DNA of 64,000 nt, taken from Rhodoferax sp. Lineage in GTDB: Bacteria > Pseudomonadota > Gammaproteobacteria > Burkholderiales > Burkholderiaceae_C. The DNA lies in the NCBI RefSeq assembly GCF_030646845.1, contig NZ_JAUSLE010000004.1, positions 1 through 64,000 of the forward strand. The letters run 5' to 3'. This document shows, one piece after another, positions 20,838 to 61,189 of this stretch (its first letter is position 1; each line of letters begins with the position of its first letter). The position numbers and the translations under genes are program-made. Below the pieces are notes generated by a model, which was not told where the DNA came from, did not search any database, and saw only the letters and a list, made by a program, of their open reading frames with translations.

Positions 20838-21566
20838 TCAGGTGGCGAAGTCTTCGCGACCGGGGTCACGGTGCGCGTGCTCGGGCTGCTTGCCGTCAAT
20901 CTTCAGCGGGTTATCAACGCGCTCCAGGTCTTCGGGGTGAATCCGGACTTCGGTCTTGCGCCGGGGCAGGTAGTGGTTGGCCGGACGTGTGCCCCATTCG
21001 GGCATGAGCTGATAGCCGCCACGTTCCGCGATGGCTTTCGAGACAATGGATTCCGGATCATGCACATCGCCGAACAGGCGCGCGTTGGATGGACAGGCCA
21101 GCACACAGGCCGGTTTGCGCTCGGGCTCCGGCAATGCCGTGCTGGTGACACGGTCCACGCACAACGTGCATTTGGTCATGACCTTGCGCTCTTCATCGAA
21201 CTCTCGTGCGCCATACGGACAAGCCCAGGTGCAGTACTTGCAGCCTATGCATTTGTCGTAATCCACCAGCACAATGCCGTCTTCGGCCCGTTTGTAGCTG
21301 GCACCCGTAGGACATACCGGCACGCAGGGCGGCTCTTCGCAATGCAGGCAGGATTTGGGGAAGTGCACCGTTTGCGTGTTCGGGAATTCGCCCACTTCAA
21401 AGGTCTGCACCCGGTTGAAGAAGGTGCCGTTCGGCTCGGCGCCGTAGGGGTTGAGGTCCACCAGCGCGCCCGCCGTACCGGACGTGTTCCATTGCTTGCA
21501 GCTGGTCACGCAGGCGTGGCAGCCAACGCAGACATTCAGATCAATGACGAGAGCCAACTGGGTCAT
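20838..21566 (-). CDS. soeB: Sulfite dehydrogenase iron-sulfur subunit SoeB
   Basis: 242 residues with four [4Fe-4S] motifs: CVGCHACVTSC, CLHCEEPPCVPVC, CIGCKYCTWAC, and CTLC with a later CVLAC. This DmsB/NrfC-type subunit wires SoeA to SoeC in the cytoplasm; no Tat signal is present, as expected for the Soe group. The ATG at 21566 overlaps the soeA stop in ATGA. A long upstream extension of the frame is noise overlapping soeA. Confidence 0.9.
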   Translation of the reverse strand: MTQLALVIDLNVCVGCHACVTSCKQWNTSGTAGALVDLNPYGAEPNGTFFNRVQTFEVGEFPNTQTVHFPKSCLHCEEPPCVPVCPTGASYKRAEDGIVLVDYDKCIGCKYCTWACPYGAREFDEERKVMTKCTLCVDRVTSTALPEPERKPACVLACPSNARLFGDVHDPESIVSKAIAERGGYQLMPEWGTRPANHYLPRRKTEVRIHPEDLERVDNPLKIDGKQPEHAHRDPGREDFAT

Positions 21567-24484
21567 TTGTTGTCTCCCTTGCCCGCAAAATAAGCCTGCA
21601 AGCGCGGGAGCACTTGCCGCATTCCGGGTGCTGCAGACACCGCCTTGAACTGGGGCCAGGTTTGCTCGGGCTCGTCGTCTTGTGCCTTGTAGATCCGTAC
21701 GCGCACGTCGTACCACGCGGCCTGCCCGGTGATGGGGTCCGAGTTGGACAGCGACGCGCCGTTGCTTCCTGCCGGCAATTCCTCCGAGATCAGGTGATTG
21801 AGCAAAAAGCCGCGCTGCGATTCATTCGCGTCGGGCGTCAGGTTCCAGGCGCCCGCGGATTTGCCGATGGCGTTCCAAGTCCATACCGTGCCGGGTTCCA
21901 CGGCTTCCGAGTAGCGGCACATGCAGCGCACCTTGCCCCACTGTGACTCCACCCACATCCAGCCGCCATCGGCAATGCCCGCGGCGCTGGCCGTCCTGGT
22001 GTTGACGAACAGGTAGTTGTGTGTGTGAATCTGGCGCAGCCAGGCGTTCTGCGAGTCCCACGAGTGGTACATCGCCATCGGGCGCTGGGTGATTGCATTG
22101 AGCGGGTATTTGGCGGTGTCGGTGGCCTGTTCTTCCAGGGGCACGTAGTAAAAAGGCAGTGGGTCGAAGTAGGTCTCCACCCGCTTGCGCAGGTGGTCTG
22201 GCGGTTGTTTGCCCGGGCGTTTGCCCTGGGCGGCGCGACGGAAACCCTGCAGGAATTCGGAGTAGATGTGGATGACGATCGGATCCTTGTCACGCCGGAT
22301 ACCCACCTTTTGCGCCCACTCCATGTAGCCGCGGTTCCAGTTGCGCATGTACTGGTACTCCAGCGGCATCTCGTAATGGAACACGCAGTTGTTCTTCTCG
22401 TACATCTCCCACTGTTTGGGGTTGGGTTCACCGCGCATGGACTTTTCGCCGCCCTTGCCGCGCCAGCCCGCCAGGAAGCCGATGCCCGAGCCCGGGGCTG
22501 TTTCGTAGTTGACGATGAAGTCCGGATAGCTCTTGAACTTGCGAGAGCCGTCCGCCTGGGTAAAGGCCGGCAGCTTGAGCCGGCCAGCCAGCTCCACCAG
22601 TACTTCCTGAAACGGTTTGCACTCGCCTTTGGGCGCGACCACCGGGATGCGGACTGAATCAGCCGGGCCATCGAATTCGGATATCGGGCGGTCCAGCATG
22701 GACATGCAGTCGTGCCGCTCCAGGTACGTGGTGTCGGGCAGGATCAGGTCGGCAAAGGCCGTCATCTCCGACTGGAAGGCGTCGCACACCACGAGGAAGG
22801 GAATCTTGTACTCACCGCTGTGCTCTCCGTCCGTGTGCTTGTCATTGAGCATCTTGCGCACTTCGGACGTGTTCATGGTGGAGTTCCACGCCATGTTCGC
22901 CATGAAGATCAGCAGGGTGTCAATGCGGTACGGGTCGCCGCGCCAGGCGTTGGTGATGACGTTGTGCATCAGGCCATGGGCGGACAAGGGATGTTCCCAG
23001 GAGAAGCCTTTGTCGATGCGCACCGGCTGGCCCTGATCATCCACAAACAAGTCATCCGGGCTCTCAGGCCAGCCCAGCGGCGCGCCGTCCAGCGGCGTAT
23101 CCGGTTTTACCGCCTGCGGCCCCTTCGGTGGGCGCGCGTTGGGCGGTACCGCACGGGGATAGGGCGCCTTGTGCCGGAAGCCACCGGGTCGGTCGATGGT
23201 GCCCAGCAACGACATCAGAATTGACAGCGAGCGAATCGTCTGAAAGCCGTTGGAGTGTGCCGCCAGTCCCCGCATGGCATGGAACGCCACCGGATTGCCT
23301 TTGACTGATTCGTGGCGTTTACCCCAGCTATCGGTCCAGGCGATGGGCAGTTCTATTTTCTGGTCGCGGGCGGTGATGCCCATTTCATGCGCCAAGCGGC
23401 GGATGGTGGCCGCCGAAATGCCGGTGATGCCCTCGGCCCATTCGGGTGTGTAGGCTTTGACGCGCTCCTCCAATAGCTGGAAGGCCGGCACCGCCGGCGT
23501 GCCGTCAGGCAGTTTGAAATGCCCCAACAATGCCGGGTCGGCGCCTTCTGCGTGATCGGCAACGCCCTGGTCGGTGAGTCGGTCCCACCAGTAGAAGTTG
23601 GCCGGGCGTAGCGGGTTGACGACATCGCCTTCCGGGTTGCGCAGCATCATGCCGAAGTCATCGCTGCTGGCATCCTGATTCACCAGTTGGCCGGCATTGG
23701 TGTAGCGCGCCAGAAACTCGCGGTCATACAGCCCCAGCTTGATGAGTTCATGGATCAGCGCCAGCAGGAGCGCGCCGTCGGTGCCCGGCTTGATCGGCAC
23801 CCACTCGTCGGCGATGGCCGAGTAGCCGGTGCGCACCGGGTTGATGGAGACAAAGCGGCCGCCATTTCGCTTGAACTTGGACAGCGCCGCTTTCATCGGG
23901 TTGGAGTGATGGTCTTCGGCGGTGCCGATCATCACAAAGAGCTTGGCGCGTCCCAGATCGGGGCCACCGAACTCCCAGAACGACCCACCGATGGTGTAGA
24001 TCATCCCGGCCGCCATGTTGACCGAACAAAAGCCGCCGTGCGCGGCGTAATTGGGCGTGCCGAACTGGCGTGCAAACAGACCGGTCAGTGCCTGCATCTG
24101 GTCGCGGCCGGTGAACAACGCGAATTTTTTCGGGTCAGTCGCGCGGATTTTCTTCAGGCGCTCTTCGAGCATCGAAAAGGCGGCTTCCCATTCGATCTCC
24201 TCAAACTGGCCTTCACCGCGCTCGCTGCCGGGCTTGCGCAACAGGGGTTTTGTCAGCCGGGCCGGCGAATACTGCTTCATGATGCCGGAGGAGCCCTTGG
24301 CACAGATCACACCCTGGTTCAGCGGGTGTTCGGGATTGCCCTCGATGTAGCGCACTTCGCCATTGCGCAAGTGCACACGGATGCCGCAACGGCAGGCGCA
24401 CATGTAGCACGTCGTATTGCGCGTCTCGGTGGTGGCGCCAAGCAGCGGCGGGCGGCAAGGGTCGTGAAGCGGTGTGGCAGACAT
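21563..24484 (-). CDS. soeA: Sulfite dehydrogenase molybdenum subunit SoeA
   Basis: 973-residue molybdopterin oxidoreductase that oxidises sulfite to sulfate in the cytoplasm. The N-terminal [4Fe-4S] ligands are C26, C29, C33 and C61, followed by the bis-guanine-dinucleotide binding domain (FTGRDQMQALTGLFARQFG, GTAEDHHSNPMK) and a C-terminal dinucleotide domain. There is no Tat signal, which distinguishes cytoplasmic SoeA from periplasmic relatives. It is first in the soe-sqr run and divergent from a two-component gene. Replacing AprAB/Sat by Soe is common in dsr organisms without those genes; none of those are in this window. Confidence 0.9.
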   Translation of the reverse strand: MSATPLHDPCRPPLLGATTETRNTTCYMCACRCGIRVHLRNGEVRYIEGNPEHPLNQGVICAKGSSGIMKQYSPARLTKPLLRKPGSERGEGQFEEIEWEAAFSMLEERLKKIRATDPKKFALFTGRDQMQALTGLFARQFGTPNYAAHGGFCSVNMAAGMIYTIGGSFWEFGGPDLGRAKLFVMIGTAEDHHSNPMKAALSKFKRNGGRFVSINPVRTGYSAIADEWVPIKPGTDGALLLALIHELIKLGLYDREFLARYTNAGQLVNQDASSDDFGMMLRNPEGDVVNPLRPANFYWWDRLTDQGVADHAEGADPALLGHFKLPDGTPAVPAFQLLEERVKAYTPEWAEGITGISAATIRRLAHEMGITARDQKIELPIAWTDSWGKRHESVKGNPVAFHAMRGLAAHSNGFQTIRSLSILMSLLGTIDRPGGFRHKAPYPRAVPPNARPPKGPQAVKPDTPLDGAPLGWPESPDDLFVDDQGQPVRIDKGFSWEHPLSAHGLMHNVITNAWRGDPYRIDTLLIFMANMAWNSTMNTSEVRKMLNDKHTDGEHSGEYKIPFLVVCDAFQSEMTAFADLILPDTTYLERHDCMSMLDRPISEFDGPADSVRIPVVAPKGECKPFQEVLVELAGRLKLPAFTQADGSRKFKSYPDFIVNYETAPGSGIGFLAGWRGKGGEKSMRGEPNPKQWEMYEKNNCVFHYEMPLEYQYMRNWNRGYMEWAQKVGIRRDKDPIVIHIYSEFLQGFRRAAQGKRPGKQPPDHLRKRVETYFDPLPFYYVPLEEQATDTAKYPLNAITQRPMAMYHSWDSQNAWLRQIHTHNYLFVNTRTASAAGIADGGWMWVESQWGKVRCMCRYSEAVEPGTVWTWNAIGKSAGAWNLTPDANESQRGFLLNHLISEELPAGSNGASLSNSDPITGQAAWYDVRVRIYKAQDDEPEQTWPQFKAVSAAPGMRQVLPRLQAYFAGKGDNK

Positions 24485-24549
24485 GCGGTGGGTATTCTTC
24501 TGGCGGGCAGGGTGTGCGGAGTGACCCTATTAAAGACAAGGGCACCCGG

Positions 24550-24599
24550 CTCCGTCTATAGCCGACACGGGTAACCCGGCGTAACCCAAATGGGTAGCG
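24550..24599 (+). promoter_or_regulatory. Shared 50-bp block, soeA/sensor-kinase copy
   Basis: It reads CGTCTAT at 24553-24559, GGGT at 24569-24572, and TAACCCAAATGGGTA at 24582-24596. The same elements at identical spacing occur at 40501-40550 (minus strand) and 49231-49280. The block starts 66 bp upstream of soeA and ends 135 bp before the proposed sensor-kinase ATG, so it could act on both. A second near-perfect palindrome, CGGGTAACCCG (24568-24578), lies inside it. The remaining 24485-24733 gap holds no further recognised element. Confidence 0.8.
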
Positions 24600-24733: not shown

Positions 24734-25951
24734 ATGATTCCTGCCCAAACCCTGTTCACTCCAGCGACCCTCGCAAGCCGCGCGGACGGGAGTTCCATCG
24801 TCTCCAGATTGGTGACCGAACTGGCGGCCGGCACTGACCTGGAGTTGTTGCTGGAGCGCTTTCTGGTTTCCATCGTTGCGCTGGCTGGTGCCCAGGCCGG
24901 GGCCGTCCGCTTGTTGACCGACGATGGGCAGCATATGCGCCTGGTGGCGCAGCAGGGCTTACCGGCGCACGTGCTGATCGCCGAACGCTTGGTGGAGCGC
25001 GACTGCGGCATGTGCGGGATCGCCGCCGACAACGACGTGCTCGGCTGGGTGGAAGACGTGCAATCCTGCGCCCGCCACAGCAATGACCCCTATTTCGGCC
25101 AGCAGTGCAGGCGTGTGCTGGCCATATCGCTGCCCCACGGCAACCAGGTACTGGGAATCTACAACCTGTTTTTTGAAGCAGATACCCAGATCAATTCCCA
25201 GACACAGACCATCCTGCGGCTGATTGGCCAGTTGTTGGGACTGACATTGCACAACGCCCGCATTGAGCGCGAGCGACTGCGAGTCACGGTGATGAAAGAG
25301 CGGCAGGAAATGGTCAATGAAGTGCATGACGCCCTTGCGCAGACCTTGGCCTACGCCAGGATGCGCCTCCCCCTGCTGCATGACGCCATGCTCGCCCACG
25401 ACGACGAGCGATCGCTGAAGTATTTCACTGATGTCAAGTCAGCCGTAGGAGAAGTGCATGACAACTTGCGTGAGGTCATGACCTACTTCCGCACCCGCAT
25501 GGATCCGCTGGGACTGCTGCATGCGCTCCAGGGTATCGCAGACGGGTTTTTCAGTCGCACCGGCATCACGCTCGAAATCAGGAATTCGGGGCAAAATCTG
25601 AACCTGACCGACGAACAGGAGGTTCAGGTGTTTCACATAATTCAGGAGGCGCTCGCCAATATCGCCAAGCACTCCATGGCCCGGCGGGCCGTGGTGGCCA
25701 TTGACAAGACGCCCCAGCGGCTTGAGTTCGTCATTGAGGACGATGGGCTGGGTATGGCCGCGCCGTCTGTCTCGACGATTGTGACGATGGCGACAGGGCT
25801 GGCTGCATCCACCCATTTTGGGCTGGAAATCATGCAGAGTCGTGCCCAGCGTCTGGGCGGCCACCTTGAAGTGGGCATGAAGGACGGTGGCGGCACGCGC
25901 GTGCGCCTGGTGCTTCCCATGACGCCAACGCCCACGGAGTCCAGCGTATGA
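24734..25951 (+). CDS. NarX-like sensor histidine kinase with GAF domain
   Basis: 405 residues from ATG 24734; upstream starts at ATG 24662 or TTG 24614 are possible and none has a strong ribosome-binding site. A GAF domain (about 20-180) with two cysteines in DCGMCGIA comes first, then a HisKA_3 dimerisation box with the phospho-histidine in NEVHDALAQTL, then an ATPase domain (EALANIAKHS, DDGLGM, FGLEIM). There are no membrane helices, so it should sense a cytoplasmic signal. Its stop overlaps the response regulator start, and its promoter region is shared with soeA. Confidence 0.85.
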   Translation: MIPAQTLFTPATLASRADGSSIVSRLVTELAAGTDLELLLERFLVSIVALAGAQAGAVRLLTDDGQHMRLVAQQGLPAHVLIAERLVERDCGMCGIAADNDVLGWVEDVQSCARHSNDPYFGQQCRRVLAISLPHGNQVLGIYNLFFEADTQINSQTQTILRLIGQLLGLTLHNARIERERLRVTVMKERQEMVNEVHDALAQTLAYARMRLPLLHDAMLAHDDERSLKYFTDVKSAVGEVHDNLREVMTYFRTRMDPLGLLHALQGIADGFFSRTGITLEIRNSGQNLNLTDEQEVQVFHIIQEALANIAKHSMARRAVVAIDKTPQRLEFVIEDDGLGMAAPSVSTIVTMATGLAASTHFGLEIMQSRAQRLGGHLEVGMKDGGGTRVRLVLPMTPTPTESSV

Positions 25952-26646
25952 CGGCCAAGACCCGGGTGATGCTGGTGGACGACCACGCGCTGTGTCGCAG
26001 CGGCCTGACGGAACTGCTGGAGCACCGGGGCGACATGAAGGTGGTGGGGGCCACGGGCGACCCTGCGCAGGTCGTGCCGATGCTTCGCGAGCATCTGCCA
26101 GACCTGATGGTGCTGGACCTGCGCCTGGCCACGACAGATGGCTTGAGCCTGTTGCGCATGATTCGCGCTGAAGGTTGTGAAACCCCGGTTGTGATATTGA
26201 CGATGAGCGACAACGAAGATGATATGTCGGCTGCACTGCGCGCCGGCGTTCGGGGTTACCTGCTCAAAGACATGGAGCCTGAGGAGGTGATTGATGCCAT
26301 CGCACGGGCGGCGCGCGGCGAGATGGTCGTGGCGTCGGCCATGACACTGAAGCTCGCGCAAATACTGCAATCCGGCCCCAGGGGATCGGTCAAGGGAGAC
26401 TTGGTGGCCTCACTCACCGAGCGCGAGCGCCAGGTGCTTGACCACGTGGCAAGTGGCCAGAGCAACAAGGTCATTGCGAAGGCGCTGGACATCAGCCACA
26501 ACACCGTCAAACTGCACGTGCGCCACATCATGGACAAGCTCAACCTGCGCTCGCGGGTCGAAGCGGCGGTGTTTGCGTTTGAGTACCGCACTTCGCCGGA
26601 GGGAGTCAAGACGACGGGTGAGGGCGGTCAAAAACCCAAAGGCTGA
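25948..26646 (+). CDS. NarL/FixJ-type response regulator
   Basis: 232 residues; ATG overlaps the sensor kinase stop. Receiver domain with acidic residues VDDH, phospho-acceptor in VLDLRLA and lysine in LLKDMEPEE. The C-terminal LuxR-type helix-turn-helix includes [14 protein letters not shown] followed by RSRVEAAVF, very like the NarL recognition region. NarL binds TACYNMT heptamers; the palindrome in the shared 50-bp block contains TACCCA(T). It is therefore the best candidate to control soe, dsr and tus promoters. Its 3' end overlaps the convergent cobA by 19 nt. Confidence 0.88.
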
Positions 26647-27888: not shown

Positions 27889-29640
27889 CTAATGCTCACC
27901 TTTGGTTTTCAAAAGCCCGGCCAGACGGTTGCCTTGTTTCTGCGGCCCACCGATGGGGAATAGATCGTGCAGATGGTGATTATTGCCACGTTCCGGCCCC
28001 CACACTCTGGCGAAGTGCCAAATCATCGCACGCACTTGCGCTTGTACCCGATGCTCCTCGAAATACGAGCGCAAAAAGTGGATCACTTGCCAATGTTCAT
28101 CGGTCAACTCCAGGCCTTCGGCCTTCGCCTGTGCCCGTGCAAAATCTTCCGACCAGTCATCCAGGTTTCTCAGATAGCCTTCGACGTCGGTGGCGATGGC
28201 TTTGCCATTGATCAGCACGCTCCGCGCCGCGGCTGTGGCCGGCGGCTGTGACGCGATGCAGTGCGCGCGCACAAAGGCGACAAACTGAGGCGCCCAGTCG
28301 GTGCCAGCGCCATTGCGCAGATGGGCATAGGAGGCGAGTACGTTACGGTAAACGATGCCGTCGCGCTGGCCGTCCACGCCATGTCCGCGTAACACTTGAT
28401 AGGCGAATTTCAGGTCTGGCGCCAGGTTTTCCAGGCTGGAGTAATGAAACTCGTGCCCACGCAGGGTTTGTGGTGCGGCACCCGCGGGGGCGGGCCAAGG
28501 CGCATCGGTCGTAGTCTGTAGCTCCATGTAGCCACGACCCACGGGCCGCTCGTGCATCACCACGTTCGCCGGAAGTGCGCCCACCATTTCGTAGACATTT
28601 TCTTTCCAGCGCAGTGTGCGCGCCAGGTACATGAGGCCGCCACATTCGGCATAGACAGGCAGTCCCCCTTCGATAGCCGCGCGGATACCGTGCCGCAGGG
28701 CCGTATTGGCCTGCAGTTCCGGCATGAACATTTCCGGGAAGCCGCCGCCAATGAACAGCCCATCCACATCGGGCAGACAGGCGTCTTGCAGGGTGTTGAA
28801 CGGGACGATCTCGGCCCCGGCCGCTTCCAGGGCCAGCAGGTCGTCCGGGTAGTAAAAACCAAACGCCTTGTCGCGCGCCAGCCCGATGCGAACCCGTGGC
28901 TGCGGTGCAGGTGCCAGCACGGCCGTGGTTTGCGCAGGGGACGGCGAGGGCAAAGGCGCGACATTGGCGGCCAGCGCCAATACCCGCGACAAATCAACCT
29001 GTGCCGCAATCAGTTCACCCATGGCATGCACGCGCTGCGCCGCGTCATCCAGCTCATGGTTGGGCATCAGCCCAAGATGGCGCTCTACCACGGCGAGCCG
29101 CGGGTCGTGCGCAATCGCGCCCAACACGGGCACATCGGTGTAGTGCTCGATCACAGCGCGGAGCTTGGATTCGTGGCGGGCTCCGCCCAACTGGTTAAGG
29201 ATGACGCCGGCAATGCGGATGCGCGGATCGAACGCCTGGTACCCCAGAATCAGCGGCGCGATGCCGCGCGTCATACCGCGCGCATCCAGCACCAGCACCA
29301 CAGGCAAGTCCAGTAAATGTGCCAGCGCGGCGTTGCTGTTGCTGCCGTCCAGCGCCAGCCCGTCGTACAAACCTTTGTTGCCTTCGACGATGCTGATGTC
29401 AGCCTGCGCAGCGTGTTGCGTGAAGCAGGCGGTGATCTGCTCGGGCGTCATCAGAAACGGGTCGAGGTTGAAGCAGGCGCGTCCGCTGGCCTGGCCCAAC
29501 CACATGGGGTCGATGTAGTCCGGTCCTTTCTTGAAAGGCTGAACGGCAAGGCCTTGAGCCGCCAGGGCAGCGCAAAGGCCGACCGTGATCGTGGTCTTGC
29601 CGGAGGATTTGTGCGCAGCCGAAACCAGAAAGCGTGACAT
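27889..29640 (-). CDS. dsrN: DsrN fused to a cysteine-free DsrC-like domain
   Basis: 583 residues. Residues about 1-460 are a cobyrinic acid a,c-diamide synthase-like (CbiA) enzyme with P-loop KSSGKTTITVG and a glutamine amidotransferase domain (AECGGLMYLA); in sulfur oxidizers DsrN amidates siroheme for DsrAB. Residues about 474-583 are a complete TusE/DsrC-type domain (INGKAIATDVEGYL, DEHWQVIHFLR, HLHDLFP) that ends KQGNRLAGLLKTKGEH. Neither of the C-terminal DsrC cysteines is present. One uninterrupted frame covers both parts. The fused domain may be regulatory rather than a sulfur carrier. Confidence 0.88.
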   Translation of the reverse strand: MSRFLVSAAHKSSGKTTITVGLCAALAAQGLAVQPFKKGPDYIDPMWLGQASGRACFNLDPFLMTPEQITACFTQHAAQADISIVEGNKGLYDGLALDGSNSNAALAHLLDLPVVLVLDARGMTRGIAPLILGYQAFDPRIRIAGVILNQLGGARHESKLRAVIEHYTDVPVLGAIAHDPRLAVVERHLGLMPNHELDDAAQRVHAMGELIAAQVDLSRVLALAANVAPLPSPSPAQTTAVLAPAPQPRVRIGLARDKAFGFYYPDDLLALEAAGAEIVPFNTLQDACLPDVDGLFIGGGFPEMFMPELQANTALRHGIRAAIEGGLPVYAECGGLMYLARTLRWKENVYEMVGALPANVVMHERPVGRGYMELQTTTDAPWPAPAGAAPQTLRGHEFHYSSLENLAPDLKFAYQVLRGHGVDGQRDGIVYRNVLASYAHLRNGAGTDWAPQFVAFVRAHCIASQPPATAAARSVLINGKAIATDVEGYLRNLDDWSEDFARAQAKAEGLELTDEHWQVIHFLRSYFEEHRVQAQVRAMIWHFARVWGPERGNNHHLHDLFPIGGPQKQGNRLAGLLKTKGEH

Positions 29641-39065: not shown

Positions 39066-40346
39066 TCAGGCCGCCGCCTTGCGGGCATTGATCTTGGCTA
39101 CTTCGTCGTCCCAGCCGTCAGTGCGGACATACGGGTTGGTGCGCGGCGTGGAAACCATGTTCGGGTCAATCTCCAGCCCAATGCCTTCCAGGAAATTGAT
39201 CAAGCCGATGCGCTCAATCATCTCGCCGGTGCGCTCATGCTCCAGCGCGTTTTCAGCGAAGAAGTCGATCGACTTCTGAGCCAGTTCCACCAGGGCCTGG
39301 TAATCCTCATCGGTCTTCATGGGCATGAAGGGTGTCACCACAGTGCCCATCAGGTCGCCGATCTTGAGAGTACGCTTGCCCCCCATCAACACCGTGACAC
39401 CCTTGTCCGTGCCCGAGGCCAGGGCACCGGTCATGACATTGATGCAGTGCATGCAGCGCACGCAGTTGGCGTTGTCGATCTCGAGCGACTGGGTATCGTT
39501 CAGGGCAACGCTTGAAATCTTGGGGCCCTTGGAGACGTCCTTGGTCTCCTTGAGCATGATGGCCTTGGTCGGGCAACGGCTGACCACATCATTCACCAGT
39601 TCGGTCATGCCATGCTTGGCAAACCATTTGCGCGCCAGGGGTTCATCAGTGCGCATGTTGTCACGCCAGGTGCCAATGACCGCCATGTCCGCACGCTGGA
39701 TCGAATTCATGCAGTCATTCGGGCAACCCGAGAACTTGAACTTGAACTTGTACGGAAGCGCCGGGCGGTGCATGTCGTCCAGGAAGGTGTTGACCACCTG
39801 ACGGTGTGCCCGTGCTTCGTCAAAGCACGATTGTTCGCAACGCGCCGCACCGACACAGGACATGGAGGTCCGTACCGCCGGGCCGGCGCCGCCGAGGTCA
39901 AAGCCCAACTCGTTCAACTCATCGAAGGCACCCTGCACGTTGGCTGTGCTGGCACCCTGAAACATGATGTCGCCCGACTGGCCGTGAAAGGCGATCAGGC
40001 CTGAACCGTGACGCTCCCAGATATCGCACATCTTGCGCAGCACATCGGTGTTGTAGTGCATGCCTGCCGGCGGTTGCACCCGCAGGGTGTGGAACTCCTT
40101 GGAGGCGGGGAACATCTCGGCCACTTCGGAGAAGCGCGGAATCACGCCGCCGCCGTAACCAAAAACCCCCACCGTGCCACCTTTCCAGTAGCCTTTGCGG
40201 GTTTTGTAGGAGTGCTCCAGTTGACCCATCAGGTCGGTCATGTAGTCGCTGTCTTTGGCCAGACGCTTCAGACCGGTGACAAAGCTGGGCCATGGACCAG
40301 CCTCTAGCTGGTCGAGCATGGGGGTGTCGTGTTGTTTCTTGCTCAT
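39066..40346 (-). CDS. dsrA: Reverse dissimilatory sulfite reductase alpha subunit
   Basis: 426 residues. The siroheme-[4Fe-4S] ligands are C164, C170 (C-x5-C in SCVGAARC), then C208 and C212 (GCPNDC), and ferredoxin ligands follow in CVRCMHC. AGGAG precedes ATG 40346. First gene of the 15-gene dsr operon. Its upstream region holds the minus-strand copy of the shared 50-bp block, about 155 bp before the start codon. Confidence 0.96.
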   Translation of the reverse strand: MSKKQHDTPMLDQLEAGPWPSFVTGLKRLAKDSDYMTDLMGQLEHSYKTRKGYWKGGTVGVFGYGGGVIPRFSEVAEMFPASKEFHTLRVQPPAGMHYNTDVLRKMCDIWERHGSGLIAFHGQSGDIMFQGASTANVQGAFDELNELGFDLGGAGPAVRTSMSCVGAARCEQSCFDEARAHRQVVNTFLDDMHRPALPYKFKFKFSGCPNDCMNSIQRADMAVIGTWRDNMRTDEPLARKWFAKHGMTELVNDVVSRCPTKAIMLKETKDVSKGPKISSVALNDTQSLEIDNANCVRCMHCINVMTGALASGTDKGVTVLMGGKRTLKIGDLMGTVVTPFMPMKTDEDYQALVELAQKSIDFFAENALEHERTGEMIERIGLINFLEGIGLEIDPNMVSTPRTNPYVRTDGWDDEVAKINARKAAA

Positions 40347-40661
40347 GGTGTGTCTCCTGTCAAGGGGTCGAACGGGGTGCGCCGGTCGGTCAAATTGGCC
40401 TTGTTGACGTCTGCCTCTTCGGGCCGGTTCACAGTCAACTCTGGGATGGATAGTACGTGTCCCGGTGTGGCTGACGCTATCACCCTCGTTGATTATTCTG
40501 TGCTACCCATTAGGGCTATATGAGCCCACCCGTCCCGGTTATAGACGGGGTGGCCCGGCATTGCGCCAAATAGCGGTACTGGGGCTTATTCCGCCGGTCG
40601 GCGTCAGCGTTCACGGCGCAGCGGCACCTGAACGGCCAGTACAGGACAAATAATACGCAAT
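40347..40661. other. Divergent promoter region between dsrA and companion operon
   Basis: 315 bp without a gene. It holds the shared 50-bp block (40501-40550) and an imperfect inverted repeat CACCCGTC/GACGGGGTG around 40528-40552, within that block. The remaining part is GC-rich with no clear sigma-70 promoter that I can defend. Both transcription units start from here, so one regulator could control dsr and companion genes together. Confidence 0.75.
40501..40550 (-). promoter_or_regulatory. Shared 50-bp block, dsrA/companion-operon copy
   Basis: Read on the minus strand it has CGTCTAT (40547-40541), GGGT (40531-40528) and TAGCCCTAATGGGTA (40518-40504), with the same spacing as the copies at 24550 and 49231 (29 bp from CGTCTAT to the palindrome in all three). 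The palindrome consensus is TARCCCWNNTGGGTA. GGGT recurs 23 bp apart, about two helical turns, as expected for a protein binding on one face of DNA. Confidence 0.8.
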
Positions 40662-40901
40662 ATGACGACCATTACACCGCTTGAAAAGCTGACCAGCCCT
40701 CTGGGCGGGCAGGTCATCGAATTGCAGCAGCTGGACTATGACGCGGGAGGCATGAGCCTGCTGCGCACGCGCATCCGTGAGAAAAGCCGTTTCACGGTGT
40801 TTGAGATTGATCCCCACACGGCGCGGCTTTGGGGCGAGGCCTTGCTGCGCTGGGTGGAGACGCAGCCCCAGACGGCGCCCGAGGCCCAGGAACCGACATG
40901 A
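40662..40901 (+). CDS. Small conserved-looking protein of unknown function
   Basis: 79 residues, no cysteine or membrane segment. Central residues GMSLLRTRIREKSRFTVFEI suggest a small alpha/beta fold. The stop overlaps the start of the Cas6-like gene as ATGA, so the two are translationally coupled. It is the first gene of the companion operon. I do not recognise the family. Confidence 0.7.
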   Translation: MTTITPLEKLTSPLGGQVIELQQLDYDAGGMSLLRTRIREKSRFTVFEIDPHTARLWGEALLRWVETQPQTAPEAQEPT

Positions 40902-41518
40902 CGATGTCGCCCGTATTGGCTGATGCAGCGGTGGACGTGGTGTTTCCCATCGAAGGCCAGACCTTGCCGCGTGACTATGCACAGGCGTTGCAGCAGGCCC
41001 TGTCTGAGAAGTTGCCCTGGCTGGATGCAGATCCGGTGGCAGGCATACATCCCGTCAAGGTGGTGCAAGGCAATGACGATCAAGCCCTCTTGTCCCGGCG
41101 CACGTCTCTGTTGCTGCGGGTGGGCGCGGGGCGCGCGGACGAACTGCTGGCGCTGGCAAAGCTTGAGCTGAGTGTGGGGGGGCATCTTCTGCGCCTGAGC
41201 CGGCCGCACCTGCGCGAACTGCTGGCTCACACCACCCTGTATGCATACCGGGTGGCAGCCGAGAGCGCGGATGAACTGACGTTCATGGCAGCGGTGGAGC
41301 GGGAACTGGCTGAATGGTCCATCGGCGGCGAGCGGGTGTGTGGCAAGCGCCAGCGGATGATGGTTTCAGGCCACGCGCTGGATACGTTCAGCCTGATGCT
41401 GCACTCGCTGCCGCCTGAGCAATCGCTGCGTCTTCAGCAACATGGCCTGGGTTTGCACCGACTGCTGGGTTGCGGAATATTTGTGCCGCACAGGTCGGCG
41501 GCAGCCGTAGGGTCATAG
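40898..41518 (+). CDS. Stand-alone Cas6-like (Cmx6-type) RNA-binding protein
   Basis: 206 residues from ATG 40898. It resembles the Cas6/Cmx6 family of CRISPR RNA endonucleases: a first region LSRRTSLLLRV near residue 66, VCGKRQRM near 148, and a C-terminal glycine-rich loop GLGLHRLLGCGIFVPH at 183-198, which is the RNA-binding signature. There are no other cas genes and no repeat array in the window. Translation is coupled to the preceding small gene. In this sulfur operon it may process a cellular RNA; the assignment comes from motif memory, so a structure-based check is needed before trusting it. Confidence 0.7.
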   Translation: MTMSPVLADAAVDVVFPIEGQTLPRDYAQALQQALSEKLPWLDADPVAGIHPVKVVQGNDDQALLSRRTSLLLRVGAGRADELLALAKLELSVGGHLLRLSRPHLRELLAHTTLYAYRVAAESADELTFMAAVERELAEWSIGGERVCGKRQRMMVSGHALDTFSLMLHSLPPEQSLRLQQHGLGLHRLLGCGIFVPHRSAAAVGS

Positions 41519-48879: not shown

Positions 48880-49107
48880 TCAGGCCTTCTTGAGATAGAA
48901 GACGTATTTGCTGTTTTCGCTGCCTTGTTCCAGCAGCGCATTGCCCGTCTGCTCGGCAAAAGCAGCCATGTCGCATACCGATCCTGGATCGGTGGAGATC
49001 ACCCGCAGCACCTGTCCGGAGGTCATGTCCGCCAGCGCCTTCTTGGTTTTTACGATGGGCAGCGGGCAGGCCAGGCCAGATGCGTCAAATTCCTTGTTGA
49101 ATTCCAT
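48880..49107 (-). CDS. tusA: TusA sulfur-carrier protein
   Basis: 75 residues, SirA/TusA family. The sulfur-accepting cysteine is C14 in the CPLP motif. TusA carries persulfide sulfur in the cytoplasm toward DsrE and DsrC. GGAG lies upstream of ATG 49107. First gene of tusA-dsrE2-DUF302-yeeE, and its upstream region holds the third copy of the shared 50-bp block. Confidence 0.93.
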   Translation of the reverse strand: MEFNKEFDASGLACPLPIVKTKKALADMTSGQVLRVISTDPGSVCDMAAFAEQTGNALLEQGSENSKYVFYLKKA

Positions 49108-49230
49108 ATCTTGTCTCCATTGGTTGACTGATTACTGATTGCAGCCGGTTATTGTGGGGGAAAGCAGAACCAATCCTTCGCGGCGAGCACCATGCCCGCT
49201 GCACGTGCTGATTCTTGAGGAGGCGTTGCG

Positions 49231-49280
49231 GCGCGTCTATCACCGCAAAGGGTGATGTTGGGTAGCCCATCTGGGTAATG
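49231..49280 (+). promoter_or_regulatory. Shared 50-bp block, tusA/hsp20 copy
   Basis: CGTCTAT at 49234-49240, GGGT at 49250-49253, and TAGCCCATCTGGGTA at 49263-49277, in the same spacing as the other two copies. It ends 241 bp before hsp20 and starts 123 bp upstream of the tusA ATG, so tusA is the more likely target. Confidence 0.8.
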
Positions 49281-49391
49281 GGGTTTTTGCCCTTGCCTGT
49301 AGATCTACATCAAGGTGGGGTAAGAAGCTGATCGTCGAGCAAGGATGTGCGCGATGCCACCATCGACAGCGTGGGCCGCGAGCTGCGGTAG

Positions 49392-49405
49392 TTGATTTTC
49401 GTCAA
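49392..49405. promoter_or_regulatory. FNR/ANR-like box upstream of hsp20
   Basis: TTGATTTTCGTCAA matches TTGATnnnnATCAA at nine of ten fixed positions. This is the binding site of Fnr/Anr-type regulators for low oxygen. It lies 116 bp before the hsp20 ATG. Confidence 0.6.
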
Positions 49406-57765: not shown

Positions 57766-59628
57766 TTGATTACGTCAGAACCATCATCCAAAGTGTCAAC
57801 CTCCACGGAAACCCCTGGCGTGGATGCGCCCGCTGAAGATGTTTCTCACAAGCTTCAGGTGGCTTATCGGCTGCTGTTTGAACGCAATCCCCTGCCGATG
57901 TGGGTGTATGACGTCAAGACCCTGCGCATGCTGGCGGTCAACGAGGCAGCCGTTGCCAAGTACGGTTATAGCAAGCAGGAGTTTGTCGGACTGACCCTGC
58001 TGGACCTTCACCACGAAGACGATGCGGCGCAACTGCGTGAGCACCTCGAGCTCCCGCCGGAGGCCCAGCGCATGCCCAGACTGTGGCAGCACAGGCATCG
58101 CGACGGCGGTATGTCTGAAGTCGAGGTGGTCACAGAAGACCTTGAGCTCGACGGCATTCGCGCGCGCATGGCGGTGGTTCGGGACCTGACGGCGCAGCGC
58201 CGCGCGGAACAGGCACAACGAGAGCTGGAACGCAGCCTGACAACTATGCTGGAGAACATGCCCGATGGCTTTTTTTCACTGGACCGTGCCGGGCGCTTCA
58301 CCTACGTGAACTCCCGTGCCGAAGAGCTTCTGCATTTCCATCGCGATGAGTTGGTGGGATTCAATGTGTGGGAGAAGTTTCCGGAAGCAGTTGGAACCAT
58401 TTTCCAGAGGGAGTACGAACGTGCAATGGTCGAGGGCACCGCATCGTCCTTCGAAGCCGAATATGCCCCCCTGGGGGCATTCTGGAAAGTGCGCGTCTAT
58501 CCTTCGGAGCAAGGCTTGGCGGTTTACTTCCGCGATGTCACCGAGCGCCGTGTGCCCGAGCAGCGTCTGCTGGAGGAGCGGGAGACCCTCTCCGCCGTGG
58601 TCAACGCGACAAATGACGCCATCATCAGCGTGGATGTGGAAGGAAAGATCAAGATGTTCAACCCGGGCGCCGAGCGCATTTTTCGACGCACGCAGGCCAG
58701 CATGCAGGGCGAGTCCATTGATGCGCTGCTGCCCGAGCGGTGTCGGGAAGGGCACAGACAGAGCCTGCGCCAATACGCCGAATCAAGGGGAAGCAGCCGC
58801 ATGATGGGATTGGGTCTGGTGAAGGGGCTGCGCGCAGACGGTCAGGAGCTTGACCTGGAAAGCACCATCTCCCAGGTGACGGTCAACCAGCAGCAGGTGT
58901 TGATTGCGAATTTTCGGGATGTCACCGAACGCGCGCGAGCTGATGCCGAAATCCGGCAGTCTCAGGCGCAGCTTTCCGATCTGACACAAAGGCTCATGAC
59001 GCAGGAGAAGGCGCTCGTCAAGCGCCTGGCGCAGTCGCTGCACGATCAGCTGGGGCAGACCATGGCTGCCATTCGCATGGCCCATGAAACGATCATGACA
59101 TTGCAGGCAGAAAAAGCCACCACCGGCGTCGACCGGCTCCAGGCGCAAATGGGCATGCTCATCGGTCAGGCCATCCGGCAGGTCAGGCAGGTGCTGATCG
59201 ACTTGCGGCCCCCCTTGCTGGATGAGCAGGGTCTTGCGGAAGCGCTCGACAACGAGCTTCGAAACCGCTCCCTGACGCAGCCCCAAGTCGATTTTTCCAT
59301 TGACGTGGCGCCAGACGTGGCCCTGATGCGCTGGCCGACCGAGGTTGAATATGCCGCGTTCATGGTCGGGCGCGAAGCGATCGAAAACGCGTTGCGGCAC
59401 TCGGGATCGTCTATCGTTTCCGTGCGACTGACGGGCACTCCTGCGTCATTGCGGCTGGAGGTTGCTGACAACGGCGTGGGGATCGCAGCAGGCGGTACCT
59501 CGCGGCCGGGTCACCTTGGCATTGTCGGCATGCACGAGCGAGCCCAGGCGATTGCCGCCACCGTCACGATCGAGCCCGGTGAAGCCCGGGGCACGCGTGT
59601 GATTTTCAGCTGGCAGCGAGCATCATGA
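57766..59628 (+). CDS. Multi-PAS sensor histidine kinase
   Basis: 620 residues if translation starts at TTG 57766; a GTG at 57793 is the next option. Three PAS domains occupy about 25-135, 150-270 and 275-395, then a HisKA_3 box with the phospho-histidine in QSLHDQLGQTMAAI and an ATPase domain with GREAIENALRHS and VADNGVGIA. No membrane helices, so the signal is cytoplasmic, such as redox or small ligands through the PAS domains. Its stop overlaps the response regulator start. Confidence 0.85.
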   Translation: MITSEPSSKVSTSTETPGVDAPAEDVSHKLQVAYRLLFERNPLPMWVYDVKTLRMLAVNEAAVAKYGYSKQEFVGLTLLDLHHEDDAAQLREHLELPPEAQRMPRLWQHRHRDGGMSEVEVVTEDLELDGIRARMAVVRDLTAQRRAEQAQRELERSLTTMLENMPDGFFSLDRAGRFTYVNSRAEELLHFHRDELVGFNVWEKFPEAVGTIFQREYERAMVEGTASSFEAEYAPLGAFWKVRVYPSEQGLAVYFRDVTERRVPEQRLLEERETLSAVVNATNDAIISVDVEGKIKMFNPGAERIFRRTQASMQGESIDALLPERCREGHRQSLRQYAESRGSSRMMGLGLVKGLRADGQELDLESTISQVTVNQQQVLIANFRDVTERARADAEIRQSQAQLSDLTQRLMTQEKALVKRLAQSLHDQLGQTMAAIRMAHETIMTLQAEKATTGVDRLQAQMGMLIGQAIRQVRQVLIDLRPPLLDEQGLAEALDNELRNRSLTQPQVDFSIDVAPDVALMRWPTEVEYAAFMVGREAIENALRHSGSSIVSVRLTGTPASLRLEVADNGVGIAAGGTSRPGHLGIVGMHERAQAIAATVTIEPGEARGTRVIFSWQRAS

Positions 59629-60302
59629 GCCGCCTGTACCTGGTCGACGACCACCAATTGATGCGCGAGGGCCTGCGGGCCCTGCTGGAGGCAAGAGGGC
59701 ATACGGTCGTGGGGGAGTCGGCGGACCCCACCGAAGCGCTGGCCGACCTGCTGCGCCTGCGCCCCGAGGTGCTGCTGCTGGACCTCAATCTTGGCGGGCG
59801 TTCGGGGTTCGAGTTGCTGGCGGAGTTGCAGCGCCGCCACCTGCCGACCCGCTGCGTCGTGCTGACCATGTCGGCCCAGCCGCGCCAGGTGGCTGAAGCG
59901 CTGCGCATGGGGGCCAGCGCCTATGTGCTCAAGGGTTCTGCGGGGAGCGATCTCATGGCCGCCATTGAGGCGGCGGTTCAGGGGAAAAAACATCTTGGTC
60001 CTGAGGTGGCCGATCTGGCGCTGCAGGTCTTTACCCAGCAGGATGAGCACGATCCCTTGAGCGCGCTGTCGCCGCGAGAGCGTCAAATCATCACCATGGT
60101 GGTGGAGGGCCAGTCCAGTGCCAAAATTGGTCTGGAGCTCCATTTGTCGCCCAAGACCGTTGCGACTTATCGCAGCCGCCTGATGGCCAAACTGGGTGTG
60201 AGCGATGTCGCGGGCCTGGTGCGACTGGCCGTACGGTACAAGCTGATTGACTCCGACGACCAGGGTGTCAGGGGCCGGCGTTCGTCGGATACGTCGAGCT
60301 GA
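59625..60302 (+). CDS. LuxR-type response regulator
   Basis: 225 residues. Acidic pair VDDH, phospho-acceptor in LLLDLNLGG, and a C-terminal LuxR helix-turn-helix with SPRERQIITMVVEGQSSAKI and KTVATYRSRLMAKL. Partner of the preceding PAS kinase. Its recognition helix differs from that of the regulator near soeA, so the two probably control different genes. Confidence 0.88.
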   Translation: MSRLYLVDDHQLMREGLRALLEARGHTVVGESADPTEALADLLRLRPEVLLLDLNLGGRSGFELLAELQRRHLPTRCVVLTMSAQPRQVAEALRMGASAYVLKGSAGSDLMAAIEAAVQGKKHLGPEVADLALQVFTQQDEHDPLSALSPRERQIITMVVEGQSSAKIGLELHLSPKTVATYRSRLMAKLGVSDVAGLVRLAVRYKLIDSDDQGVRGRRSSDTSS

Positions 60303-60430
60303 CTGTCCATCGCTGCCTGCGTGACCCGTCAATATCTCCCTACAGACTGGACACGGTGCCCGACCTAAAGTTGTCTCCGGGGTTTGTTTGAGCGCCCACC
60401 GGGCGCGGCATCCGGCAAGAGAGCAACAAC

Positions 60431-61189
60431 ATGATGAACGTTCAACCAATATCGAGTTCAGCCCGCTGGCTGCCCTCGGCGAATCAACCTGCGCTTAAGC
60501 TGGAGAGCGATGAGCGCTGGTCAAATTTTCAGGAGATTTTGAGCTTATTGCGGTTCGACGGCCATGTGCACGAAATGAACGACACCAGCCTGTTCCGGCG
60601 TCGTCGCCTCAAGGCAGGCCAGTCGGCCTTGAGCATGGGACAACCCTTTGAGGGGCTTTATGTGGTTCGACTCGGCGCACTCAAGACGTCGATGACGCAT
60701 GTCGATGGCGCCGAGCATGTGCTCGCCTTTCCGATGAAGGGTGACCTGCTGGGTTTTGACGGCATCTGCAAAAACAAATACTTGAGCGAAGTCGTTGCCT
60801 TGACGGATTGCGACCTGATCAAGATACCCGCAGCGGAGTTGTTTTCACCGGGCCGGGGTTGCAATGACATCGAGCGCATGGCCTACTGGGCCATCAGCCG
60901 CGAGATCGTTCAGGAGCAAACCAACTATGCGCTGTCGCACTCGGCCAAGTCCGAGGCGCGGGTGGCCCGTTTCCTGCGCATCCAGTCGGAACGTTTTACG
61001 GCCATGGGCTACTCTCCCAACCGGTTCACCTTGCCGATGACCCGACGCGACATCGGCAACCACCTTAACGTCACGCTGGAAACCGTCAGCCGCGCCTTCT
61101 CTGCGCTGGACCATTTGGGAATCATCGCGGTCGAACGGCGTGAAATCAAGATTCTGTCGCTGGAAGCGCTGCGTAAATTCGAGAATTAG
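60431..61189 (+). CDS. Crp/Fnr-family regulator without iron-sulfur cysteines
   Basis: 252 residues. A cyclic-nucleotide-binding-type beta roll lies at about 50-165, and a helix-turn-helix near 205-230 with NHLNVTLETVSRAFSAL, where ETVSR is the Fnr recognition pattern. The N-terminal cysteine cluster of Fnr is absent, so it is not a direct oxygen sensor. It could recognise the two FNR-like boxes in this window. It is followed by the Usp gene 5 nt later. Confidence 0.88.
   Translation: MMNVQPISSSARWLPSANQPALKLESDERWSNFQEILSLLRFDGHVHEMNDTSLFRRRRLKAGQSALSMGQPFEGLYVVRLGALKTSMTHVDGAEHVLAFPMKGDLLGFDGICKNKYLSEVVALTDCDLIKIPAAELFSPGRGCNDIERMAYWAISREIVQEQTNYALSHSAKSEARVARFLRIQSERFTAMGYSPNRFTLPMTRRDIGNHLNVTLETVSRAFSALDHLGIIAVERREIKILSLEALRKFEN

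Follow-up and report, generated by a model that had tools for sequence, protein, structure and literature searches.

The sulfur-oxidation genes in this 64,000-nucleotide stretch of a Rhodoferax sp. genome (the window) raise the question of how they are jointly controlled. To our knowledge, little is known about how oxidative dsr genes are switched on. The initial annotation claimed that a 50-bp block with identical spacing occurs in the promoters of soeA, dsrA and tusA, and suggested that it is the operator of an unknown sulfur regulon. We find that the block is a tandem element of a sulfur-oxidation regulon, conserved and highly specific.

The three copies read as first described. The core is 44 bp, and one gap-free pattern (CGTCTATNNCCGNNNNGGGTN9TANCCCNNNTGGGTA) fits all of them, with CGTCTAT, GGGT and the palindrome at fixed distances. 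At three or fewer mismatches, the window contains only these copies, and none occur in 100 dinucleotide shuffles. The palindrome alone (at most one mismatch) is found in the same three places only, where 0.28 occurrences are expected. The search of the whole genome (4.35 Mb), proposed with the original observation, returned exactly three exact matches, which front soeA, dsrA and tusA; the reversed control pattern gave none. Chance agreement, already judged very unlikely, and a repeat element are both rejected, as no matches were found in shuffles or for reversed patterns in the window, genome, genus and dsrA-carrier searches. The TGGGTA end of the block faces dsrA, but faces away from soeA and tusA. 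Orientation is constant for each promoter class in relatives, with one exception seen: in L050 (Ramlibacter) a single block is common to tusA and soeA, and soeA is on the TGGGTA side.

Among 89 genomes of the genus (including this one), the block at three or fewer mismatches is present in 30, with 0 control matches; 21 of the 30 have three copies (range one to four). True dsrA genes were identified in 28 of the 89 (25 score above the family cut-off, and G020, G023 and G070 have fragments), and the remaining weak DsrA matches (E 1e-14 to 1e-7) are read as other reductases. All 28 dsrA-positive genomes carry the block, as do only G021 and G077 among the other 61. Merging identical flanks left 81 distinct sites (against 83 matched places), and every one examined adjoins soe, sat, dsr, tusA or sox genes: soeA and kinase (25), sat and kinase (2), dsrA (26), tusA (24, including one common to soxY) and soxY without tusA (4). 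Neither copies before unrelated genes nor loss in close relatives with the same operons, the two outcomes that would have counted against a regulon, were encountered in the genus. Confinement to functionally related promoters and retention with dsrA support the reading of the block as a probable operator. Counting against it, the flanks fetched for the two soxY copies of the Rhodoferax genome itself contain no block.

The DsrA of the window shows 99% identity to a Polaromonas sp. MAG protein and 93-94% to Rhodoferax MAG proteins. We collected 80 dsrA loci, 70 of them outside the genus by our reading, and searched 50 of the 70 (a non-random sample, Burkholderiaceae-like genomes first). The strict pattern is present in 20 of the 50, with 0 control matches, and flanks dsrA, tusA, tusA and soxY, soeA and kinase, sat and kinase, or the kinase gene alone (L156 weakly; L148 and L157 fall in no class). 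By eye, the gene to the right of the block in L148 resembles a TauE-type exporter. Among the cultured strains, Hydrogenophaga aromaticivorans D2P1 and Piscinibacter defluvii SH-1 have three sites each. A looser pattern found the block in 13 of 399 genomes of the order (this one included; 2 reversed-pattern control matches). Relatives of the block occur in dsr promoters of other Burkholderiales: the looser unit TA(N)YCC-N3..5-GGGT lies within 420 bp upstream of dsrA at 55 of 66 non-genus loci (the other 4 of the 70 had too little upstream DNA). Controls gave 111 of 3300 in shuffles, 3 of 607 in eleven control windows, and 24 of 66 in a twelfth starting 100 bp inside dsrA, where the matches presumably reflect conserved coding sequence.

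The block proves to be composite. In a profile built from the 94 sites with full flanks (34 dsr, 27 kinase, 33 tus/sox) among 97 distinct ones, it consists of two direct copies of a unit, TNRCCNNNANGGGTR, offset by 23 bp. Self-comparison of the profile scores highest at this 23-bp shift (5.08; next best 1.86 at 22), and dyad scores peak at midpoints 37.5 (2.79), 26.0 (2.12), 14.5 (1.93), 37.0 (1.92) and 6.5 (1.67). From the self-match and the dyads it follows that the GGGT and the palindrome noted at first belong to one unit, present twice; the outer CGTCTA falls outside it. As a counterpoint to the two-unit view, the whole-block midpoint has a higher dyad score (2.12) than unit 1 (1.93), although imperfect palindromes centred at 14.5 and 37.5 would between them also produce a dyad at 26.0. 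Relatives of the Rubrivivax and Ideonella type have clear palindromes as both of their units (CATACCCGGTACGGGTGA and ATAGCCCATTCGGGTAA), which lie 24 bp apart in L041. The same profile reveals a further 20-bp element, at +9 to +28, that is conserved among dsr-class sites only.

Table 1. Features of the sulfur-gene promoters, ordered along the window.
Feature	Position	Strand	Basis or context
soeA-like molybdopterin oxidoreductase gene	21563..24484	-	family-level matches below cut-offs; name from initial annotation and neighbourhood
putative -10 box TTTAAT, soeA promoter, 18-bp spacer	24529..24534	-	sequence; conserved ATT
block copy 1	24553..24596	+	between soeA (leftward) and kinase-regulator pair (rightward)
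putative -35 box TAGACG, soeA promoter	24553..24558	-	sequence
copy 1, operator unit 1 (TNRCCNNNANGGGTR, block positions 7-21)	24559..24573	+	profile of 94 sites
copy 1, operator unit 2 (block positions 30-44)	24582..24596	+	profile of 94 sites
candidate sensor histidine kinase, GAF-HisKA_3-HATPase	24734..25951	+	domain matches; four conserved Cys in GAF
candidate NarL-type response regulator, proposed block binder	25948..26646	+	domains, structure match, co-occurrence
dsrA	39066..40346	-	family match
further 20-bp element, dsr class only (TACYCAACGAGGGKGATRGC), TAATCAACGAGGGTGATAGC here	40476..40495	-	downstream of block towards dsrA; profile
block copy 2	40504..40547	-	between dsrA (leftward) and divergent small ORF and Cas6-like gene
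copy 2, operator unit 2	40504..40518	-	profile of 94 sites
copy 2, operator unit 1	40527..40541	-	profile of 94 sites
putative -35 box TAGACG, promoter divergent from dsrA	40542..40547	+	sequence
putative -10 box CCAAAT, promoter divergent from dsrA, 18-bp spacer	40566..40571	+	sequence; conserved ATT
operon divergent from dsrA	40662..41518	+	small ORF 40662-40901 and Cas6-like (PF09559) gene
tusA	48880..49107	-	reading of translation
putative -10 box AAGAAT, tusA promoter, 17-bp spacer	49211..49216	-	sequence; conserved ATT
block copy 3	49234..49277	+	between tusA (leftward) and hsp20 (rightward)
putative -35 box TAGACG, tusA promoter	49234..49239	-	sequence
copy 3, operator unit 1	49240..49254	+	profile of 94 sites
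copy 3, operator unit 2	49263..49277	+	profile of 94 sites

We consider it likely that a dedicated NarL-family two-component system, encoded beside soeA (24734-26646), uses the block as its tandem operator, which its regulator would bind to activate the genes. The regulator has the Response_reg-GerE architecture of a NarL-type response regulator (PF00072, 5.6e-26; PF00196, 2.3e-22). Its best match among solved structures is E. coli NarL (E 4.6e-45), and its recognition helix is close to the TVKVHVKHML of NarL. An orthologue (E <=1e-60) is encoded in 27 of the 30 block-positive genomes of the genus (in G095 by a fragment) versus 1 of the 59 block-negative ones; in that one, G009, a diverged block lies between the kinase gene and soeA. 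The three block-positive genomes that lack it (G021, 91% complete; G008, 82%; G087, 69%) also have none at E 1e-40, and the regulator was not found in the block-positive G335/G151. At E <=1e-40 it is present in 48 of the 50 non-genus dsrA-positive genomes. In the order-wide set of 399 genomes, 82 of the 87 with dsrA encode it versus 1 of the 312 without (p about 6e-78), as do 12 of the 13 with the block, figures that are inflated by common descent and by linkage to the dsr island. Of the five dsrA-positive genomes that lack it, two (G379 and G409) have the highest-scoring DsrA (about 598 bits), perhaps of the reductive type.

Another, unlinked transcription factor might bind the block instead, the adjacent two-component system having only been inherited together with the dsr island. 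Because the regulator tracks dsrA itself, it could co-occur with the block through linkage alone, and the dsrA-positive genomes of the order (12 with both, 1 with the block only, 70 with the regulator only, 4 with neither) leave the two statistically inseparable. The block-positive genomes in which the regulator was not found (G021, G008, G087 and G335) and the left half of the unit, which is not a NarL heptamer, also fit an unlinked factor. Position, a more independent pointer to the binder than co-occurrence, argues against it: the block remains beside the kinase gene where the other neighbour is sat rather than soeA (G070, G082, L165), and GTCTAT-plus-dyad sequences precede the kinase gene in distant genera (e.g., L226, L238, L239, L242, L244). 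Counting against the adjacent regulator, several kinase promoters among those listed from outside the genus (L217-L223 left out), including those of Rhodocyclaceae, show no block. The second NarL-type regulator of the window (59625-60302), present in 15 of 30 block-positive versus 18 of 59 block-negative genomes (p = 0.10), is not associated with the block. On balance an unlinked factor is unlikely, and the adjacent NarL-type regulator is the best candidate binder, well supported by position and co-occurrence.

The second regulator is half of a kinase-regulator pair that has PAS domains, and a Crp/FNR-type regulator comes after it (57766-61189, + strand). The latter (60431-61189) was set aside as a binder because the block shows no TTGAT-N4-ATCAA dyad, the motif of Crp/FNR-type proteins. 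A coupling of helix type to the base before GGGT (SHN with T, SHD mostly with C, SYD mixed) is suggestive; it reflects few independent events, and for that reason we do not use it as evidence.

Putative promoter signals overlap the block. Read on the other strand, CGTCTA is TAGACG, which fits a -35 box, and a conserved -10-like ATT (AAT as read) lies 17-18 bp away in all three promoter classes. At the genus sites, T is found at -22 in 80 of 81 and ATT at -23 to -21 in 52; TTA, TTG or TTT, in 27, is the same ATT one base further out in the printed alignments. We infer that TAGACG and AAT form a weak leftward promoter of the sigma-70 type, which would place the unit centres near -43.5 and -66.5. 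No comparable sigma-70-type promoter is evident beside the block for the rightward genes. The block is richer than the initial annotation had it, with its tandem units, the putative promoter signals that overlap it and, in relatives, sat and soxY as additional targets; that observation was right, and somewhat understated.

This arrangement bears on the direction of control. Were the adjacent regulator a repressor that holds the sulfur genes off until a signal arrives, it would be well placed, as unit 1 directly abuts the putative -35 box and a regulator bound to unit 2 in L239 could block a rightward promoter at the TTGATA-16-TATACT sequence that overlaps this unit. The leftward promoters, however, appear weak (TAGACG, NNNAAT), as expected of activator-dependent promoters, and tandem units upstream of the -35 box are the geometry of the activator BvgA; repression is an unlikely role, slightly more so than an unlinked binder. 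It is very improbable that the block is no operator at all and serves instead as a promoter read by an alternative sigma factor or as a structured element within a transcript: ECF sigma factors with CGTC-containing -10 boxes are known and the block is longer than one usual operator, yet its conserved part repeats at 23 bp and is partly palindromic, its distance to gene starts is 50 to 160 bp, with both orientations represented, and the only promoter-like spacing seen next to it is sigma-70-like.

Activation by the adjacent regulator would have a close geometric parallel. BvgA acts with a membrane-anchored hybrid sensor. At the Bordetella fha and ptx promoters, this NarL-family activator binds as head-to-head dimers spaced by 22 bp, of which the nearest abuts the -35 box (PMC7250471). 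Judged by sequence only, the block has the features of such a site (units repeated at 23 bp, about two helical turns as in BvgA, TAGACG next to unit 1, and ATT 17-18 bp further). The likeness is one of geometry; BvgA has another half-site sequence and other genes.

NarL operators combine heptamers in a 7-2-7 inverted repeat. Unit 2 contains ATGGGTA, the complement of TACCCAT, which fits the NarL heptamer TACYYMT (PMC4886647). The near-identical recognition helix and this half-site link the system to NarXL/NarQP, whereas the left half, TARCCCA, fits in no 7-2-7 register, and neither does the spacing. The kinase is also not NarX or NarQ proper (NarQ 133 bits versus a cut-off of 553; NarX 112 versus 578): it has a GAF domain with four conserved cysteines, and the targets here are sulfur genes. 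Across 59 aligned kinases, Cys is found at C91 in 58, C94 in 53, C112 in 55 and C125 in 41, a pattern that suggests a metal-sulfur or thiol sensor.

Two other systems share the theme of sulfur oxidation. NreBC of Bacillus licheniformis is likewise a NarL-type two-component system that activates sulfide-oxidation genes, but it detects sulfide with a PAS domain, and its targets are sqr and pdo instead of dsr, soe or tusA (PMC9918477). RsrS-RsrR of Acidithiobacillus caldus, also a two-component system, controls the tetrathionate intermediate pathway, which is likewise a sulfur-oxidation pathway (PMC5093147). Our survey of the literature on how dsr, soe and sox genes are regulated, by two-component systems or otherwise, with most subscription papers outside its scope, returned no description of the present system, and the regulator seems not to have been described before.

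We predict that the phosphorylated regulator binds as two dimers, one per 15-bp unit, with centres 23 bp apart and facing roughly the same side of the helix. The unit next to CGTCTA would abut the -35 box, and the regulator could help RNA polymerase start transcription of soeA (or sat), of tusA-dsrE2 and of the operon divergent from dsrA. For the rightward genes, namely dsrA, soxY where present, and the kinase-regulator pair itself, these dimers may work as well; at dsrA, the 20-bp element would act alongside them. The kinase probably senses an intracellular sulfur or redox signal via its four-cysteine GAF domain.

More broadly, though we put this forward tentatively as one possibility, a single dedicated two-component system may be the general switch for oxidative-Dsr sulfur lithotrophy in Burkholderiales. 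It would be co-inherited with dsr across families, sense the intracellular sulfur or redox state via the GAF domain (perhaps as an iron-sulfur or persulfide sensor), and use shared tandem operators, acting in both directions, to turn on sulfur transfer (tusA), Dsr, sulfite oxidation (soe or sat) and, in certain species, sox. For the control of oxidative dsr genes, the analysis yields a candidate regulator, a candidate four-cysteine sensor, a precise operator and a defined regulon, which can be tested in the cultured strains that carry block sites. The tie between regulator and dsrA would also help to annotate sulfur oxidizers.

Some neighbouring genes deserve mention. The operon divergent from dsrA encodes a 79-aa ORF and a product matching Pfam Cas6 (PF09559, 1.3e-54), and the Cas6-like gene is a neighbour of dsrA throughout the genus and in further genera (38-71% identity). 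The interval from block copy 3 to hsp20 contains, at 49301-49404 (+ strand), the sequences TAGATctacATCAA and TTGATtttcGTCAA, which we take to be FNR-like. One reading frame (27889-29640, - strand) joins a CobB/CobQ-like amidotransferase part to a C-terminal DsrC domain.
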